20,950 nt of DNA. Source: a virus. Made by a program: the position numbers and the translations under genes. Under the pieces are notes generated by a model. That model had not been told where the DNA came from. It made no database searches and saw only the letters and a program-made list of their open reading frames with translations. Below, piece after piece: positions 1 to 12,269 of this stretch. The first letter of the stretch is position 1; each line of letters starts with the position of its first letter. The stretch lies in the IMG/VR virus record IMGVR_UViG_3300047276_000148, positions 1-20,950 of that record, one strand, 5' to 3'.

Positions 1-825
1 ATCTGTTGCCTTGGCATAGCGAAGAGTTGTCTCTATGCGCTTGTGTCCAAGCAGATACATAATGGTTCGGATTGGTACACCTGCATCAGCGAGCCAGGTG
101 GCATAGCTGTGGCGAAGTGTATGGAAAACGTAACCTTCTGGTTTTGGTAACAGGTTGTTGATCTTGCGAAAGTTTCTCAATAACTGATCTTTGTCCGTCC
201 ACTCCTGACCGAACACACGGGTGTGGCCAGATGATTGTGAACAACGATCTGTTAATAATTTGAGACATGACTCATGGATGGGGACAACGCGAACGTTGCC
301 CGCCTTTGTTGTGACTTCCGCTTCACCACCAACCGTGATGCGCTTGGTGATCAGATCAATGTCCTTACACCTGAGCTTGAGGATCTCCCCCTGCCTGAGC
401 CCGTGATAGGCCGCAAATAACGTGATATGCGCTAAGTCATCACGCTGAAGAACATTAGTGGACAGGTCAACCAAGCGATGAACCTCATCTTTGGTGTAGT
501 AGAGGACACGTCCTTCATTCTCCTTACGTCTCCTGAACTTGGGAGGAGGCGGAATCAATCCGTCAAAGGCGCAGTGGTTAAGGACTGTGCTAACTGCAGA
601 CACAACTCGGTTGATCGTCGCGTCGCTTTTACCCGCGTCCTCAAGCTCGATTGCAACTCGGCTGAGGAGAGGCTGATCAATTTTTCGCACAGGGAAAGAT
701 AGTCCAACACTCTGGGTAAAGTGTCCCGCATTGATGAGAGCAGTTTTTCGTCCGTTGCCATGTCTCCAGGTGTGTCGTGTTGAGAGGGTGTAATCAAGAG
801 CTTGTCCCCAAGTCTTAATCTCCAT
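1..825 (-). CDS. int: Tyrosine recombinase integrase (partial, C-terminus cut by window edge)
   Basis: I translated this frame by hand. It starts at ATG 825 (MEIKTWGQAL) and stays open to base 1, giving 275 visible residues. The family catalyses site-specific integration and excision of phage DNA through a covalent 3'-phosphotyrosine. The full catalytic set is visible: R144 in GLRQGE, the hairpin lysine K174 in TTKAG, H235 and R238 in HTLRHS, H261 in LLGHKR, and nucleophile Y270 in TTLRYAK. The N-terminal ~100 residues fit a SAM-like core-binding domain. Since the nucleophile is only six residues from the edge, perhaps 10-40 residues are missing. The start overlaps the stop of the MarR-like gene by 11 bases. 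Any attP downstream of int would be outside the window. Integrases are known in T7-like cyanophages, although lysogeny is rarely demonstrated. Identification is very secure; the exact start is slightly less so. Confidence 0.95.
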   Translation of the reverse strand, partial: MEIKTWGQALDYTLSTRHTWRHGNGRKTALINAGHFTQSVGLSFPVRKIDQPLLSRVAIELEDAGKSDATINRVVSAVSTVLNHCAFDGLIPPPPKFRRRKENEGRVLYYTKDEVHRLVDLSTNVLQRDDLAHITLFAAYHGLRQGEILKLRCKDIDLITKRITVGGEAEVTTKAGNVRVVPIHESCLKLLTDRCSQSSGHTRVFGQEWTDKDQLLRNFRKINNLLPKPEGYVFHTLRHSYATWLADAGVPIRTIMYLLGHKRIETTLRYAKATD

Positions 826-1171
826 AAAGGATGTCCTCGATTTGTTTGATGAGTGCTTTGCCTTTGGCGTTAAGCCTTAACTGTTGTCGTCGTCTGTTGG
901 TTGGGTCTTGCTCCTTGATAATGAGATCTAATCCAGGTTTGTTGACCCACGACATGTCAGTGAGCTTGTCAGTGCATCGACTGCCAGCCGCAGTAGAGAG
1001 TTGTAAGTCCTCTTCTACTGCTTGCTTATGACAGTTGTCGTGGGCTGCTATGTAAAAGAACGTAGCTAGAACCTGAGCTGGTACCTCACGATCCAATAGA
1101 CGTAGTAGGTCCATGACCTTTTGCACCCTCTCCATCCGTGGGTTGGTGAGTTGGCGTCTGTAGGGGTCCAT
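815..1171 (-). CDS. MarR-like winged-helix DNA-binding protein
   Basis: This encodes 118 residues. Residues ~35-115 follow a winged-helix plan: a helix (QVLATFFYIAAHD), a helix-turn-helix (VEEDLQLSTAAGSRCTDKL), a basic wing (KEQDPTNRRRQQLRL) and a final helix (NAKGKALIKQIEDIL). The 'LNAKGKALI' ending is typical of MarR-type regulators. The likely role is transcriptional regulation of phage or host genes, binding as a dimer; the ligand or target is unknown. It lies directly upstream of the integrase and overlaps its start by 11 bases, so the two are probably co-transcribed and translationally coupled. No clear Shine-Dalgarno sequence precedes ATG 1171, and the frame closes at a stop 24 bases further upstream (1196-1198), so the start is well bounded. 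The fold assignment is from sequence pattern only. Confidence 0.75.
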   Translation of the reverse strand: MDPYRRQLTNPRMERVQKVMDLLRLLDREVPAQVLATFFYIAAHDNCHKQAVEEDLQLSTAAGSRCTDKLTDMSWVNKPGLDLIIKEQDPTNRRRQQLRLNAKGKALIKQIEDILYGD

Positions 1172-1910: not shown

Positions 1911-2099
1911 TCAAAAGCTATTGTTTGGGGTATCGAAGGTGAAGTAGTAATCCAGTTGAATCCAGATCTCCTTGCTGATGTTGTCGGCCAAGCGATCAAT
2001 CAAGTCAACACGATCAGGTAGTCCATCTGTGTTGTTAAGTGCGTGCTTGACTCCTTCATCTATACACTGATCTATGAGGTTGAATAAATTAACTTGCAT
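1911..2099 (-). CDS. Small hypothetical early protein (62 aa)
   Basis: A 62-residue acidic protein, MQVNLFNLIDQCIDEGVKHA..., largely helical, ending in an aromatic stretch (IQLDYYFTFDTPNNSF). Its ATG overlaps the stop of the antirestriction-like gene as TGATG, implying translational coupling. About 47 noncoding bases separate it from the next gene, which carries its own ribosome site. No domain recognised. Confidence 0.65.
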   Translation of the reverse strand: MQVNLFNLIDQCIDEGVKHALNNTDGLPDRVDLIDRLADNISKEIWIQLDYYFTFDTPNNSF

Positions 2100-2668
2100 C
2101 AGTAGTTACGAAGGAAGAATGTGTACCCACCATGTTCAATGGTGATAAAGTCATACCTGAGTTGATGATCCCAGACTGCTTGCCAATCAATAGCGTGGTA
2201 GACAAGAGAGTCTTGGATAGACTCCAGCTCATTCACATACTCTTCAGCAAAGTGACGCTCTGCCCAATACTCATCGTTGTATGAGTAGAAAGCATCCTCA
2301 TAAGAAGAGACAGTCTCGATACCATTGTCATCAAGTAGTTCAATAAACTCAATGAACTCCTCATGGTCCCACTTCTCTGTGTAGGATTGTTGATCTAAGT
2401 AATCGTACAAAGCTTTCTGATCCTCAGGAAGGTCTTCATACTCATTGTCTTGAACGTCAGTGTTACTTACTGGTGTAACTCCACGTGCATTCAATAGTTC
2501 AGTGTAGAAGTCAACATAACGTGCTTTGCCATTGTTATAGACATAGCCTGCATCTAGAATCATCTGAGTGCGTGTTAGCTCACCCCTATTGATGAGTTCT
2601 TTGCGTTCATCAACGTAATTAACGAGCGCCTGGCCTGTGAGTGTGAAAGCAACAGTGGTGGTTGTCAT
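2099..2668 (-). CDS. Fusion of a cyAbrB-like domain with an ArdA-like antirestriction domain
   Basis: This is 189 residues from ATG 2668 (MTTTTVAFTLTGQALVNYVD). The frame is open to 2758, but ATG 2668 lies one base after the stop of the 48-residue gene upstream. Residues ~8-63 match the pattern of cyanobacterial AbrB-like DNA-binding proteins: LTGQALVNYV, then GYVYNNGKARYVDFYTELLNARGV. An acidic linker follows (VQDNEYEDLPEDQKALYDYL). Residues ~102-189 resemble ArdA: EDAFYSYNDEYWAERHFAEE, then YHAIDWQAVWDHQLRYDF and a short GGYTFFLRN end. ArdA proteins mimic DNA and block type I restriction-modification enzymes. The whole protein is very acidic, as expected for a DNA mimic, and sits among early genes, where protection on entry is useful. 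The ArdA call is by motif spacing. The AbrB-like call is weaker because the canonical 'K-R-V-N' is replaced by KARYV. Confidence 0.65.
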   Translation of the reverse strand: MTTTTVAFTLTGQALVNYVDERKELINRGELTRTQMILDAGYVYNNGKARYVDFYTELLNARGVTPVSNTDVQDNEYEDLPEDQKALYDYLDQQSYTEKWDHEEFIEFIELLDDNGIETVSSYEDAFYSYNDEYWAERHFAEEYVNELESIQDSLVYHAIDWQAVWDHQLRYDFITIEHGGYTFFLRNY

Positions 2669-2816: not shown

Positions 2817-3049
2817 ACAACCTCCATACCTTGGTCAGCCATTTCATCCATCATTGCTTGTTGAAACAAGTGTGGACAAATAGATTCACTGAGTAGCATC
2901 CTTGCTGCATTGCGTGCTATTACATAGTCAGCAAAGCCATGCATATCATCTTTGCTGATCATCTCATCAGCATCATCACGATTGAATGATACGATGTTGT
3001 TAGCAGCAGTGAAGTCAAGACGCTTGGCTTTCTTTCTCTTCTTAGACAT
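2813..3049 (-). CDS. Small hypothetical early protein with basic N-terminus (78 aa)
   Basis: 78 residues from ATG 3049 (MSKKRKKAKRLDFTAANNIV). The codon before it is TTG, so a 79-residue version is possible but less likely. A strongly basic N-terminal tail is followed by an acidic helical body (RDDADEMISKDDMHGFADYV, then ARNAARMLL). The start overlaps the upstream stop as TGATG and the stop overlaps the next start as ATGA. The tail could bind nucleic acid, but no domain was recognised. Confidence 0.65.
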   Translation of the reverse strand: MSKKRKKAKRLDFTAANNIVSFNRDDADEMISKDDMHGFADYVIARNAARMLLSESICPHLFQQAMMDEMADQGMEVV

Positions 3050-3330
3050 CAAACAAACTCCATAGCAGGTAAGGTTTGGATAGCAACACTGTCTTGCATG
3101 AAGGCGTCCTTGTACTTACGCGCAACATACAACACATCATCTATGTAATCAGTACACACTGAGACACACTTAGTATCTTCATGCTCTGATTTCCATACAC
3201 CATCAACACTGGAGATAGTGTATCCATCAAACACAGTATCCAATACATTGATGAACTGTTCCCAGTCACGATTGGTTACTATGTCACCATTGGGTATGTT
3301 CCTACCCATGAATAGTTGATAGGTGTTCAT
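3049..3330 (-). CDS. Hypothetical protein with DUF3574-like pattern (93 aa)
   Basis: 93 residues. The order of features recalls the DUF3574 family: an initial strand with 'GRNIPNGDIVTNRDWEQF', a 'FDGYTISSVDGVWKSE' strand pair, then a helix with 'YKDAFMQDSVAIQTL'. Members are small ferredoxin-like alpha/beta proteins of unknown function, often secreted in bacteria; no signal peptide is seen here. Its ATG overlaps the upstream TAA by one base (TAATG). The family match is a pattern judgement and needs a profile search. Confidence 0.65.
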   Translation of the reverse strand: MNTYQLFMGRNIPNGDIVTNRDWEQFINVLDTVFDGYTISSVDGVWKSEHEDTKCVSVCTDYIDDVLYVARKYKDAFMQDSVAIQTLPAMEFV

Positions 3331-4014: not shown

Positions 4015-4043
4015 ACCATACCATAGCGGACAGGATGTGTCAA
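4015..4043 (-). promoter_or_regulatory. Sigma-70-like promoter candidate for the early block
   Basis: On the minus strand there is a perfect TTGACA (-35, 4038-4043), a 17-base spacer and TATGGT (-10, 4015-4020; 4 of 6 consensus). It points towards the early genes that begin at 3759, as expected for host-polymerase transcription of early phage genes. It is prediction only. Confidence 0.5.
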
Positions 4044-4565: not shown

Positions 4566-4808
4566 GTGACCAGTCCAACCGTGATTGAACTGATGACTTC
4601 ATTCTCACGACAACCAAGCTATCGGCAAGGTTTGTCTCCGTTTACAACACCATTAACACGCAAACCAAGTCGTGTAACCATCACAGTCCCATGGGCACTA
4701 CGACAACAACTCGATAACAGGAGTGTCCTAGAAGGGAGAAGCCTTAGCAACCTTATCGCTTACCTCCTAGAAGAAAGTTTATCGACTAAAGCTCCCTCTT
4801 CCACATAG
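4566..4808 (+). CDS. Ribbon-helix-helix (CopG/Arc-type) DNA-binding protein
   Basis: This is the only plus-strand gene. The 80 residues include an RHH domain at ~34-72: strand SRVTITVP, helix WALRQQLDNRSVLEG and helix RSLSNLIAYLLEESL. RHH proteins bind DNA as dimers through the paired strands and commonly act as repressors; P22 Arc and Mnt are phage examples. The first ~33 residues look disordered. The frame starts at GTG 4566; ATG at 4593 is an alternative. Neither has a clear Shine-Dalgarno. A weak promoter is possible upstream (CTGTCA-17-TATGCT with an extended TG, near 4503-4531). The gene faces away from the early block across the control region, and its last 23 bases overlap the end of thyX in a tail-to-tail arrangement. 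A regulator of the early region is a reasonable inference. Similar short RHH proteins also occur in cyanobacterial chromosomes. Confidence 0.8.
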   Translation: MTSPTVIELMTSFSRQPSYRQGLSPFTTPLTRKPSRVTITVPWALRQQLDNRSVLEGRSLSNLIAYLLEESLSTKAPSST

Positions 4809-5427
4809 CATCAGACACTGCAGGCAAGTGTAGGTACAGTAAATCCTGCACTTGTCCTGCTATCTGTGCGTGTTCCTTCTGAGTACCATTACTTGTACGT
4901 AGGTCACAGTAATGCAACCAAGACCTAATGGTGCCATTCATGTACAACTTAGTTGGTGCTGCCATTGGTAACACTTCTCGTGCACACTCCTTAGCTACCC
5001 CGGCTTCTACCAGTTCTTTGTAGAGACCATAACAGTCTGAGTAAAGACTACCAATCCTGAATTGGAAGTGTTTCTTCAACACCTCATCTAGATCATCAAT
5101 ACTATTCTGTCTATTCTTAGTATCTTGCCTACGTAGTTCAGGGATAGATGCTTGCTTCTCTACCTTGGCATACCGTTGACTAAACTCTTGAAAGGAGAAG
5201 CTCCTATGCCGAAGGATCTGTGCTGCAATACTACGTGTTGTCTCAATACATACACACATATTCACCATCTCAAAAGGAGACCAGTGTTGATGGTCTATGA
5301 GATATTTAATTAACTTAGCACTTGTCTGAGTGTTGTTTTGATTAGATGGGTTAGATACTCTAGCCATATAGGCAATAAGATCTTCTGCATCAGGTGTGAT
5401 GTGTACGAGACTAACTTGGTGGGTCAT
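4786..5427 (-). CDS. thyX: Flavin-dependent thymidylate synthase
   Basis: ThyX makes dTMP from dUMP using methylene-tetrahydrofolate, FAD and NADPH, providing thymidine for phage DNA synthesis. The 213-residue length is normal. The ThyX signature RHRX7S is present at residues 73-83 (RHRSFSFQEFS), continuing QRYAKVE. The C-terminal half has the expected substrate-binding region (AREVLPMAAPTKLYMNGTIR, then SWLHYCDLR). The N-terminal 'IAYMARVSNPSNQNN...KLIKYLIDHQHWSPFE' is also typical. The start overlaps the preceding stop as TAATG. thyX is found in many cyanophages. Here it lies after the terminase rather than with replication genes. Confidence 0.95.
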   Translation of the reverse strand: MTHQVSLVHITPDAEDLIAYMARVSNPSNQNNTQTSAKLIKYLIDHQHWSPFEMVNMCVCIETTRSIAAQILRHRSFSFQEFSQRYAKVEKQASIPELRRQDTKNRQNSIDDLDEVLKKHFQFRIGSLYSDCYGLYKELVEAGVAKECAREVLPMAAPTKLYMNGTIRSWLHYCDLRTSNGTQKEHAQIAGQVQDLLYLHLPAVSDAMWKREL

Positions 5428-5885: not shown

Positions 5886-7634
5886 CTAAACCCAGGTGGG
5901 CACTGGCTTTTTACCAGATAGACCTCTTGCTTGTCTTCGCTTGTCTAGGGACATGCCCATAACCAAGTGATCTGTGGCAGATTGAGGATCGTCTATGAAG
6001 GTATCAAGCATGTCTTGCCAATCCTCCTGCCTTCTAGCTTTGACTGCTTCATAGGCTGAGATAGACATAGCATCGGTGAAGTACTTAACACCTTGAGCTA
6101 GGCTATCTAATCTGTCGTCGTGTTTAACAGCACCCTTTTCACGACACATCCGACTCATCTGGTAGAAGAGCATATAGAGGAGTCGTTCTTCTGGTGGTGC
6201 GTCTTTATTGGAACTGTAGTCCCATTCAATGACACCACGATCAACAATAAGTTTATGTTGATTAAGGATAGGCTCTAAGGCATCAATGATTCGGTCTTCT
6301 TTACGAACATTAGCCCGGACTTCTTCTACGTCTATGGGTTGTTTGGTCTGTTGGAGGTGTTTTTTGAACAGTTCTGCGACGATACCGTCACCGAAGTTGG
6401 TTTCGATGAGGAGTTTAGTAACATTGTAGCGCTTACACCCACGAAGGATGTCAAGAAGTGTATTGTCGCTATAACCATCGCGATACGCTCGTATTTCGTG
6501 AACGTAGAGAAACCCATTCTTTTGACTGATGTATGTAGCTGCTGTCTCGTCAGTACCCCTACCTGATGGGTCTACTGAGCAGATTGTTTCTGTATATGGT
6601 CCCCATTCACCTTGTAATTGCATCGGGGAGTAGAAGTAATCACCCGGTAAGCCAACCGTAGGCAGATCCTTGAGACAATTACGAGGGTCACTGCACCACA
6701 CAACAGCATCCGGCGCTTGAGTCGGATTAACGGAGGTAATGATGAGGTCTGAGAACTTAAGCGGGAACTTCTCGGCATCACTAAGCGTTGTATCGAGTTG
6801 AAACTGCAACATGAAGTTGCTACGACCCATTGCTGCTTCCCGTTCCAACAGGTCATCACTGGTAAAGCGATCAGGATCTGTAGGTTCCCATTCATCAACA
6901 CCCATCTCAATATCTTCTGAGATCTGAGGGGCCAGGAGACCTTCGTATTGGGAGAGCTTGTCTTTACGTGGGTAACGGGATGGCCAGACAAATGGACGGT
7001 AGTTGCGCTCAGCTAATTTTCGGTATATGGTGAAAGTGGTTTGGGGTGTACCTAGGTACATAATGCGGGAGTCCTTCTTCGGTGTGAGGATGGACTCCGC
7101 TTCTGTACACAACTGAAGGAGCTTTTCTCGCATCATCTCTGTCATGGAGTTACCAGGAACCTCCACGTCATCAAGAATCATCAGGTCTGCACGAGAACCA
7201 GTTAGCTGACCTGTGATACCAACTGACTTAACGGATGGTGCTTGGTGAGGTGAGCAGTTAACGTCAAAGGAGATACGAGACCATCTGGCTTCATCACTCT
7301 TAGGTCTTAGGTGAGCTAGCCATGGGGTTTCAATGATCAACTTCTGAAGGAAGATGGACATGTTATCTGCACGCTCTTTAGACGCAGAGATGATCATGAT
7401 CTTCTTTTCAGGATCATTGAATAGGGTCCACAACACAAACGCTCCAGTAATCCAGCTCTTACCGACTCCTCGGAAAGCTTGGATCTGTAGTCGTTTAGGT
7501 CCGTGTTGCAGGTAGTCAGCAATGGCGTATTGTGCTCGTGTAGGAGAAGGAAGATCTAGTTGTCCCCATAGGGCTTGAAGAAAGATCTTAAAATCGTCTC
7601 TAAGGGCTGTTAAAGTATCCATATAGGGAAACAT
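5886..7634 (-). CDS. terL: Large terminase subunit (T7 gp19-like DNA packaging motor)
   Basis: This is the ATP-driven motor and nuclease that cuts and pumps phage DNA into procapsids. The 582 residues compare with 586 in T7 gp19. Seen in order: an ATPase domain with Walker A in AFRGVGKSW (~53-61), Walker B LMILDDVEVP (~151-160) and coupling motif MYLGTPQTT (~192-200). Then comes a nuclease domain with ICSVDPSGRGTDETAA (D355), LLIETNFGDG (E411) and HDDRLDSLAQGVKYF near the end. All key acidic residues appear intact. ATG 7634 has no good Shine-Dalgarno; ATG at codon 5 is an alternative. A GU-containing hairpin lies just upstream (7648-7682). It belongs to the late operon and is its last large gene. 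Confidence 0.97.
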   Translation of the reverse strand: MFPYMDTLTALRDDFKIFLQALWGQLDLPSPTRAQYAIADYLQHGPKRLQIQAFRGVGKSWITGAFVLWTLFNDPEKKIMIISASKERADNMSIFLQKLIIETPWLAHLRPKSDEARWSRISFDVNCSPHQAPSVKSVGITGQLTGSRADLMILDDVEVPGNSMTEMMREKLLQLCTEAESILTPKKDSRIMYLGTPQTTFTIYRKLAERNYRPFVWPSRYPRKDKLSQYEGLLAPQISEDIEMGVDEWEPTDPDRFTSDDLLEREAAMGRSNFMLQFQLDTTLSDAEKFPLKFSDLIITSVNPTQAPDAVVWCSDPRNCLKDLPTVGLPGDYFYSPMQLQGEWGPYTETICSVDPSGRGTDETAATYISQKNGFLYVHEIRAYRDGYSDNTLLDILRGCKRYNVTKLLIETNFGDGIVAELFKKHLQQTKQPIDVEEVRANVRKEDRIIDALEPILNQHKLIVDRGVIEWDYSSNKDAPPEERLLYMLFYQMSRMCREKGAVKHDDRLDSLAQGVKYFTDAMSISAYEAVKARRQEDWQDMLDTFIDDPQSATDHLVMGMSLDKRRQARGLSGKKPVPTWV

Positions 7635-11487: not shown

Positions 11488-11713
11488 TTCTAAGGACGAT
11501 CTGATCTAGTTTATTTTCGATGCGGATCATGTGATCCTCCATCTTTTGTAGTGCAGAGGTAAGCTCTTCACGTTGGACGTATTTCTCAGCGATTCGTAAT
11601 TCAACCTGATCAATACGTTTATCGACTTCAGAGATACGACCGTGCATACGTGAATGTAGAGCTACGACTGCAGTAAAGACAGCTACAGTGCCTGAAACTA
11701 TTGCTTCAATCAT
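11480..11713 (-). CDS. Membrane-anchored coiled-coil protein, candidate holin or spanin-like
   Basis: 77 residues. Residues ~3-21 (EAIVSGTVAVFTAVVALHS) form one membrane segment. The rest is a charged coiled coil (RISEVDKRIDQVELRIAEKY, then LQKMEDHMIRIENKLDQIVL). The signal-anchor plus coiled-coil plan fits an inner-membrane spanin (T7 gp18.5 type) or a small holin-associated protein. It follows the glucosaminidase gene with an eight-base overlap, so a lysis role is likely. There is no lipobox partner nearby. Confidence 0.6.
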   Translation of the reverse strand: MIEAIVSGTVAVFTAVVALHSRMHGRISEVDKRIDQVELRIAEKYVQREELTSALQKMEDHMIRIENKLDQIVLRNG

Positions 11714-12269
11714 GCTGCTCCATCAACCGAATAAGCTTTTGCGGGTAGATGGGATCTGTAGCGTAACCTTCACGCTTCAGTAGATACGCACAGTCTTCAC
11801 GAGTAGCTGCTCGGTTGACACCTTTGTAGCCTTTGTAATCTTTGTACCATTGCGTGACAAGGTGAGCCACGCAATCGTATGGTGTAGCGAAATCTTGGAA
11901 GGAAGCCTTGATGGTTACAGGACCATTACCGTAGTCTTCCCATGTAGTCTTGACCGTTCCCGGTCCCTTAATTCCAAAGAAGTTATTCTTACCAGATAGG
12001 GCAGTGCCATACGCACTTTCTAGTGCCCACTGTGCTGCCACAACCTCAGGAAATTTAGCTCCAGCCGCTGCTGCAGCTGCTTCAATACCATCCCACGAAT
12101 TAGAGAAGGTTTGACTAGGTGGTTTAGCAGGAGGTTGTCTCCATAGCTTTACCCATTCCTGATTTTCAGAAAGGCCCTCCTCACCAATGAGTTTCTCAAG
12201 GAGTTGGAGGGCTTTAACTTGGTTAGGCAGACCTTTGTAGTAGCGAGCTACGTCAGTCAGCTTAATCAT
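11706..12269 (-). CDS. Glucosaminidase-type endolysin (GH73)
   Basis: 187 residues. The N-terminal ~55 residues (YYKGLPNQVKALQLLEKLIG...) form a short helical region. A Pro-rich hinge leads to a GH73/FlgJ-like glucosaminidase domain: 'PEVVAAQWALESAYGTALSG' with likely catalytic E84, then NNFFGIKG (95-102), and later FATPYDCVAHLVTQWY and a final YATDPIYPQKLIRLM. It cleaves N-acetylglucosaminyl bonds in peptidoglycan for host lysis. There is no signal peptide, so a holin is needed; the genes on both sides encode small membrane proteins that could serve. The start overlaps the upstream stop as ATGA. Unlike T7, whose lysozyme is an amidase encoded early, this enzyme is in the late operon. Confidence 0.92.
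   Translation of the reverse strand: MIKLTDVARYYKGLPNQVKALQLLEKLIGEEGLSENQEWVKLWRQPPAKPPSQTFSNSWDGIEAAAAAAGAKFPEVVAAQWALESAYGTALSGKNNFFGIKGPGTVKTTWEDYGNGPVTIKASFQDFATPYDCVAHLVTQWYKDYKGYKGVNRAATREDCAYLLKREGYATDPIYPQKLIRLMEQHD

Follow-up and report, generated by a model that had tools for sequence, protein, structure and literature searches.

Here, we describe a cyanophage protein in which the N-terminal module of the host regulator cyAbrB is fused to a strongly acidic tail homologous to the C-terminal domain of the antirestriction protein ArdA. Both parts belong to known families. CyAbrB proteins are global, partly essential, chromosome-organising regulators of cyanobacteria, and a widespread cyanophage protein carrying their N-terminal module is a concrete starting point for working out how these phages may gain control of the host nucleoid. 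We tentatively read the protein as a host-takeover DNA mimic of T7-like cyanophages whose module docks onto host proteins, most likely cyAbrB, and we put this at somewhat less than an even chance. The preliminary description of this DNA had called the fusion unusual, and we agree. The combination itself, the substitution of a host-regulator module for the ArdA N-terminal domain and the loss of a conserved cysteine in all members were not found in the openly licensed literature searched, which is weak evidence of absence; nor did the literature searched yield a phage factor acting on cyAbrB.

The window, i.e. the whole 20,950-nucleotide stretch of viral DNA analysed here, is a fragment of a T7-like cyanophage, with genes for a T7-type terminase (5886-7634), ThyX (4786-5427) and an endolysin (11706-12269) as well as structural genes. 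The fusion gene occupies 2099..2668 on the minus strand and is an intact open reading frame of 189 codons plus stop, running from an ATG at 2668 to a TGA at 2101-2099. Within the protein, residues 8-63 (2480..2647, minus strand) make up the cyAbrB-type module, for which three helices are predicted. Residues 64-100 (2369..2479, minus strand) form an acidic linker with helices and have no firm homology, and residues 101-189 (2102..2368, minus strand) are the strongly acidic ArdA-like domain. The signature IDWQAVWD at residues 160-167 (2168..2191, minus strand) is near-invariant in the family and also occurs in full-length viral ArdAs. The AlphaFold2 model of the fusion has a mean pLDDT of 80.5 and is interrupted at residues 66-74, in the linker region, by a break of low confidence.

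The closest named relative is gene 5 of S-CBP1, a phage of Synechococcus CB0101, with 82% identity, followed by proteins of DSL-LC07 (55%) and of S-B28, WH11-B and 7B11-B (about 41%). Two scans of IMG/VR gave 19 and 80 loci, with many contigs in common. Once near-identical copies were removed, at least 48 non-redundant full-length relatives remained (IMG/VR contigs, including S-CBP1 and S-B28), which together with the window protein gives a family of 49 members. The two-part layout is common to all 48, and the dN/dS values of 0.13-0.15 in comparisons with the window protein (~0.13 against S-CBP1), about equal in both halves, indicate purifying selection. Given the intact reading frame, the 48 relatives with the same layout and the similar selection on the two halves, we conclude that the gene is real, widespread and maintained as a fusion. 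The preliminary description had considered that homologues might always be split and that an assembly error might have joined two genes here. The 48 other non-redundant sequences, and sequenced isolate genomes too, carry the fusion intact, and both halves are under purifying selection; this rules out the split-gene reading and leaves an assembly artefact or frameshift with a negligible probability. Bacterial genomes yielded no such fusion: in the 244 cyanobacterial genomes sampled, the full-length profile matched through its N-module part only. In three relatives (L077, L078 and L081), the C terminus has diverged, with changes to the IDWQAVWDH signature or its loss, which may mean that the mimic end is diversifying.

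The origin of the module was established by profile-profile comparison. A profile of residues 5-66 from the 49 phage sequences matched the N-terminal module of 20 host cyAbrBs (HHalign 98.2%, E 5.6e-14), aligning to residues 7-64 of the cyAbrBs of small-genome cyanobacteria, with residues ~8-63 homologous. Its score of 74.9 compares with a maximum of 16.8 in column-shuffled controls, 0/100 of which reached it. The cyAbrB query used as bait was an approximate consensus, and we base our conclusions on the real sequences that it retrieved. When the profile was run genome-wide, 97 of the 244 cyanobacterial genomes contained matches, the strongest (E ~1e-9 to 1e-10) in genomes of 1.6-3.0 Mb, presumably picocyanobacterial given their size, and the others mostly at 1e-4 to 1e-3. 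Against the C-terminal half of cyAbrB, the same profile gave no match (HHalign 0.5%), and the values for the profiles of the two fusion parts lay at 0.1-0.5%.

The fusion of a cyAbrB-related segment with an ArdA-like acidic segment was proposed in the preliminary description and is borne out by these comparisons (HHalign 98.2% and, for the tail, 98.1%). Its further claim that the N-terminal domain binds DNA does not stand, as the AbrB fold lies in the other half of cyAbrB and the phage protein has the N-terminal module only. The putative DNA-binding domain of cyAbrB is described as C-terminal in a review (PMC4264147). The Pfam family for cyAbrB, PF14250, has no match in the window protein or in any member tested, because it begins at cyAbrB residue ~45-53 and models the C-terminal half that is missing from the phage protein. 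In the AlphaFold2 model of a host cyAbrB, a three-helix N-terminal module is followed by a disordered linker and a beta-beta-alpha-beta-beta C-terminal half. The best 16 PDB matches of this model in Foldseek are nearly all SpoVT/AbrB/MazE or related DNA-binding structures, aligned over 41-57 columns; their E-values are individually only 0.08-0.9, and it is the agreement among them that we find telling. Pfam, the predicted structure and Foldseek therefore agree in placing the AbrB DNA-binding fold of cyAbrB in its C-terminal half. As the phage protein lacks that half, its mimic is joined to an accessory module of cyAbrB rather than to a DNA-binding domain. Compared with the nucleoid-associated regulators cyAbrB1 and cyAbrB2 (PF14250), the phage protein shares the N-terminal module (LTGxxL ... 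GY ... FYxxLLxAkG) but has neither the C-terminal AbrB DNA-binding half nor the conserved cysteine, and it carries an ArdA tail.

The module is also found in other company. Large proteins of small-genome cyanobacteria carry it without the AbrB half; these have 589, 1110 and 1489 aa (minus strand: L241 1135-2901 and 3243-6572, and L242 1224-5690) and contain LRV/HEAT repeats and hydrophobic N termini. In a small cyanobacterial genome it also lies within an open frame of 399 residues that contains a BRCT domain (L243 2436-3632, plus strand). Among phages, the Prochlorococcus myovirus P-TIM68 encodes the module alone as a 52-aa protein (L106 2498-2656), and gp246 of Synechococcus phage B23 joins it to a different tail (L107 2411-2839). 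Judging by these sequences, the N-terminal module of cyAbrB is apparently an undescribed mobile module. Its association with repeat and BRCT proteins in hosts and the stand-alone copy in P-TIM68 suggest a role in protein interaction, and the family described here singles out this poorly understood part of cyAbrB as a mobile and probably protein-interacting module. AbrB1 has been reported to bind itself and AbrB2 (PMC4264147), and homotypic docking is our simplest guess at what the module does.

One position in the module differs consistently between phage and host. The cysteine of the CGY motif is present in 55/55 host proteins, whereas 49/49 phage members have Ala or Ser there; in the window protein the residue is A40 (codon at 2549..2551, minus strand). 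The CGY cysteine is also absent from the modules of P-TIM68 and B23. In AbrB2, glutathionylation of the single conserved cysteine affects oligomerisation and DNA binding (PMC4264147), and this cysteine is residue C34 (PMC13421787), which fits the CGY cysteine of the module by its position. The loss of the cysteine in phage modules could be mere relaxation.

The tail is strongly acidic in every member, as DNA mimicry would require: residues 67-189 of the window protein contain 32 acidic and 5 basic residues, a net charge of -27 over 123 residues, and the net charge of the tail ranges from -24 to -30 across the 49 members, with the N-terminal module near neutral (mean -1.9). Residues ~101-189 match the C-terminal domain of ArdA with HHalign at 98.1% (E 9e-14) when viral and cyanobacterial ArdAs are combined and at 86% (E 5e-6) with cyanobacterial ArdAs alone; 0/100 column shuffles reached the real score. 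The family phrog_36653, annotated as 'anti-restriction protein', is matched by 15/16 members (best 6e-6), and two undoubted ArdAs, L101 and L104 (PF07275 E 3e-20 and 1e-22), match it through their C-terminal part. The viral contigs L101-L105 carry full-length ArdAs with the same C-terminal IDWQAVW motif, with PF07275 over its cut-off in the two tested; among complete ArdAs, these are likely to be the nearest to the tail.

No significant domain emerged when the window protein was scanned with Pfam, NCBIfam and PADLOC. PF07275, the Pfam ArdA family, has no match in it and at best reaches E 0.029 in 2/16 members, short of the curated cut-off. The profile searches for ArdA and AbrB-like families suggested in the preliminary description thus gave nothing as direct Pfam matches (PF07275, PF14250) and succeeded as comparisons of family profiles with the C-terminal domain of ArdA and the N-terminal module of cyAbrB. 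Neither the protein nor its alignment gave a significant match when searched by sequence against the PDB. In Foldseek, the fusion model has its best viral matches in two short proteins from phages (133 aa, 9e-8; and NATL2A-133, 120 aa, 1e-4); several models of phage proteins named 'Antirestriction protein' come next, with insignificant E-values. Against the PDB there was no significant match, and Tn916 ArdA (2W82) was not among the matches listed.

The domain had been called ArdA-like, and this holds for its C-terminal homology and acidity but not for ArdA as a whole, since the ArdA N-terminal domain (IYVAxLxxYNxGxLxGxWI) is absent and the N-part profile scores 0.1-0.3% against ArdA. ArdA itself (PF07275; Tn916 Orf18, PDB 2W82) is an elongated dimer and an inhibitor of type I restriction enzymes. 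Like it, the fusion protein has the homologous C-terminal domain and strong acidity; unlike it, it has the cyAbrB module in place of the N-terminal domain and falls below the Pfam cut-off. An ArdA domain can, on this evidence, be swapped for a host-derived part. The fusion also resembles sArdC, reported in 2025 (PMC12548430), in the part of ArdA that is kept, namely the C-terminal part only. However, sArdC is a stand-alone protein of about a third of ArdA encoded on bacterial chromosomes, whereas the fusion has 189 aa, a host-derived N-terminal module and a home in cyanophages. Other cyanophages carry the homologous ArdA-like C-terminal domain in short proteins without the cyAbrB module (NATL2A-133 CYPG_00064; MedDCM-OCT-S08-C41; phrog_36653).

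How might such a protein work? We infer that the tail mimics DNA in the manner of the acidic ArdA proteins and would cover the surface with which a host protein binds DNA. The module taken from host cyAbrB could serve as a handle for docking or self-association, bringing the mimic to proteins that carry or bind the same module. In a more specific version, the phage protein would join cyAbrB oligomers as a decoy subunit without a DNA-binding half, its tail would compete with DNA for the adjacent AbrB domains and, having no regulatory cysteine, the decoy would escape the redox switch. Such a redox-insensitive decoy would insert into cyAbrB assemblies and strip them from DNA, and a scaffold of antirestriction type would then serve counter-silencing or nucleoid takeover; we regard this version as rather unlikely as it stands. 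It draws support from the ancestry of the module, the loss of the redox switch and the rarity of type I RM set against cyAbrB in 22/22 small cyanobacterial genomes (2-6 matches each). The cyAbrB count is partly circular, because presence of the module was the criterion by which the 22 genomes were selected; the RM count alone escapes this problem. The occurrence of the C-terminal domain without the module in other cyanophages counts against the decoy, since the ArdA-like tail is evidently useful on its own. There are precedents for both strategies against H-NS, as T4 Arn is a DNA mimic and T7 gp5.5 binds the oligomerisation domain (PMC8501957). The likeness is conceptual only, that of phage proteins acting on a host nucleoid protein by mimicry or via its oligomerisation domain; no homology is claimed, and by analogy both strategies would share one chain in the fusion. 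The suggestion in the preliminary description that a host regulator is the target thus seems plausible to us.

The main competing explanation is plain antirestriction, in which the ArdA domain acts as an inhibitor of restriction enzymes of the host (type I or similar), the module stands in for ArdA domain 1 and does no more than help the mimic to dimerise, fold or gain length, and cyAbrB is no target at all. The homology of the tail to ArdA speaks for it, as do the module-free C-terminal domains of other cyanophages, an early-region location like that of antirestriction genes and the protection of lambda from EcoKI and EcoR124II by sArdC, in which the C-terminal piece of ArdA stands alone (PMC12548430). 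However, type I RM is rare in the 22 small cyanobacterial genomes, with HsdS in 5 and HsdR in 4, and this explanation does not tell us why a host-regulator module was recruited and then kept under selection in all 48 full-length relatives. We consider it a real possibility, and yet favour, still with less than even confidence, a docking mimic with cyAbrB as the likeliest partner.

Two further explanations concern the partner and the module, and both appear improbable. The tail might be aimed at some other host DNA-binding or defence protein (RNA polymerase, HU, CRISPR or another system), while the module would dock to a partner other than cyAbrB. DNA mimics do strike varied targets, such as HU in the case of DMP19 (PMC5722371), and since several host proteins unrelated to one another contain the module, the partner may be something else, although nothing points to any specific target. 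Less probable still is that the module itself binds DNA, the protein being a regulator whose DNA-binding and mimic parts control or inhibit each other. The module is helical and derives from a family of DNA-binding proteins, but the AbrB DNA-binding fold lies in the other half of cyAbrB (PMC4264147), the charge of the module is near neutral, and elsewhere in hosts the module is found in repeat and BRCT proteins.

The gene neighbourhood speaks for both the docking mimic and plain antirestriction. In S-B28, DSL-LC07 and 7B11-B, thyX is on one side of the fusion gene and the phage RNA polymerase gene on the other; in S-CBP1 the fusion gene is upstream of the polymerase gene, and in the window it lies beyond thyX on the same strand. 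This is where early genes are expected, and the gene is probably expressed early. The best sigma-70-like site (4015..4043, minus strand; 10/12 match, with a TG before the second hexamer) lies upstream of the gene cluster and is a candidate early promoter, the number of such sites in the scan upstream of the cluster being not above chance. Downstream, a small ORF of 62 aa (1911..2099, minus strand) overlaps the fusion stop codon with its start as TGATG. It is not a conserved partner: at homologous loci the start/stop overlap is common and the downstream gene varies between phages, so that the position 3' of the fusion gene appears to be a swappable cassette.

Several neighbouring genes deserve a mention. 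In the window, a 93-aa protein encoded at 3049-3330 (minus strand) matches DUF3574 above cut-off (1.1e-8) and has a weak match, below cut-off, to an S-adenosylmethionine lyase family (E 0.0017); going by these matches, it is possibly a second gene of antirestriction type in the same cluster. An 80-aa ribbon-helix-helix ORF (RHH_5, 9.4e-9) lies at 4566-4808 on the plus strand, among recognisable phage genes that are all on the minus strand. A 118-aa ORF at 815-1171 (minus strand) matches a phage transcriptional regulator family (phrog_9665, 4e-48), and in S-CBP1 a gene annotated as MarR family is found between the fusion gene and the integrase.
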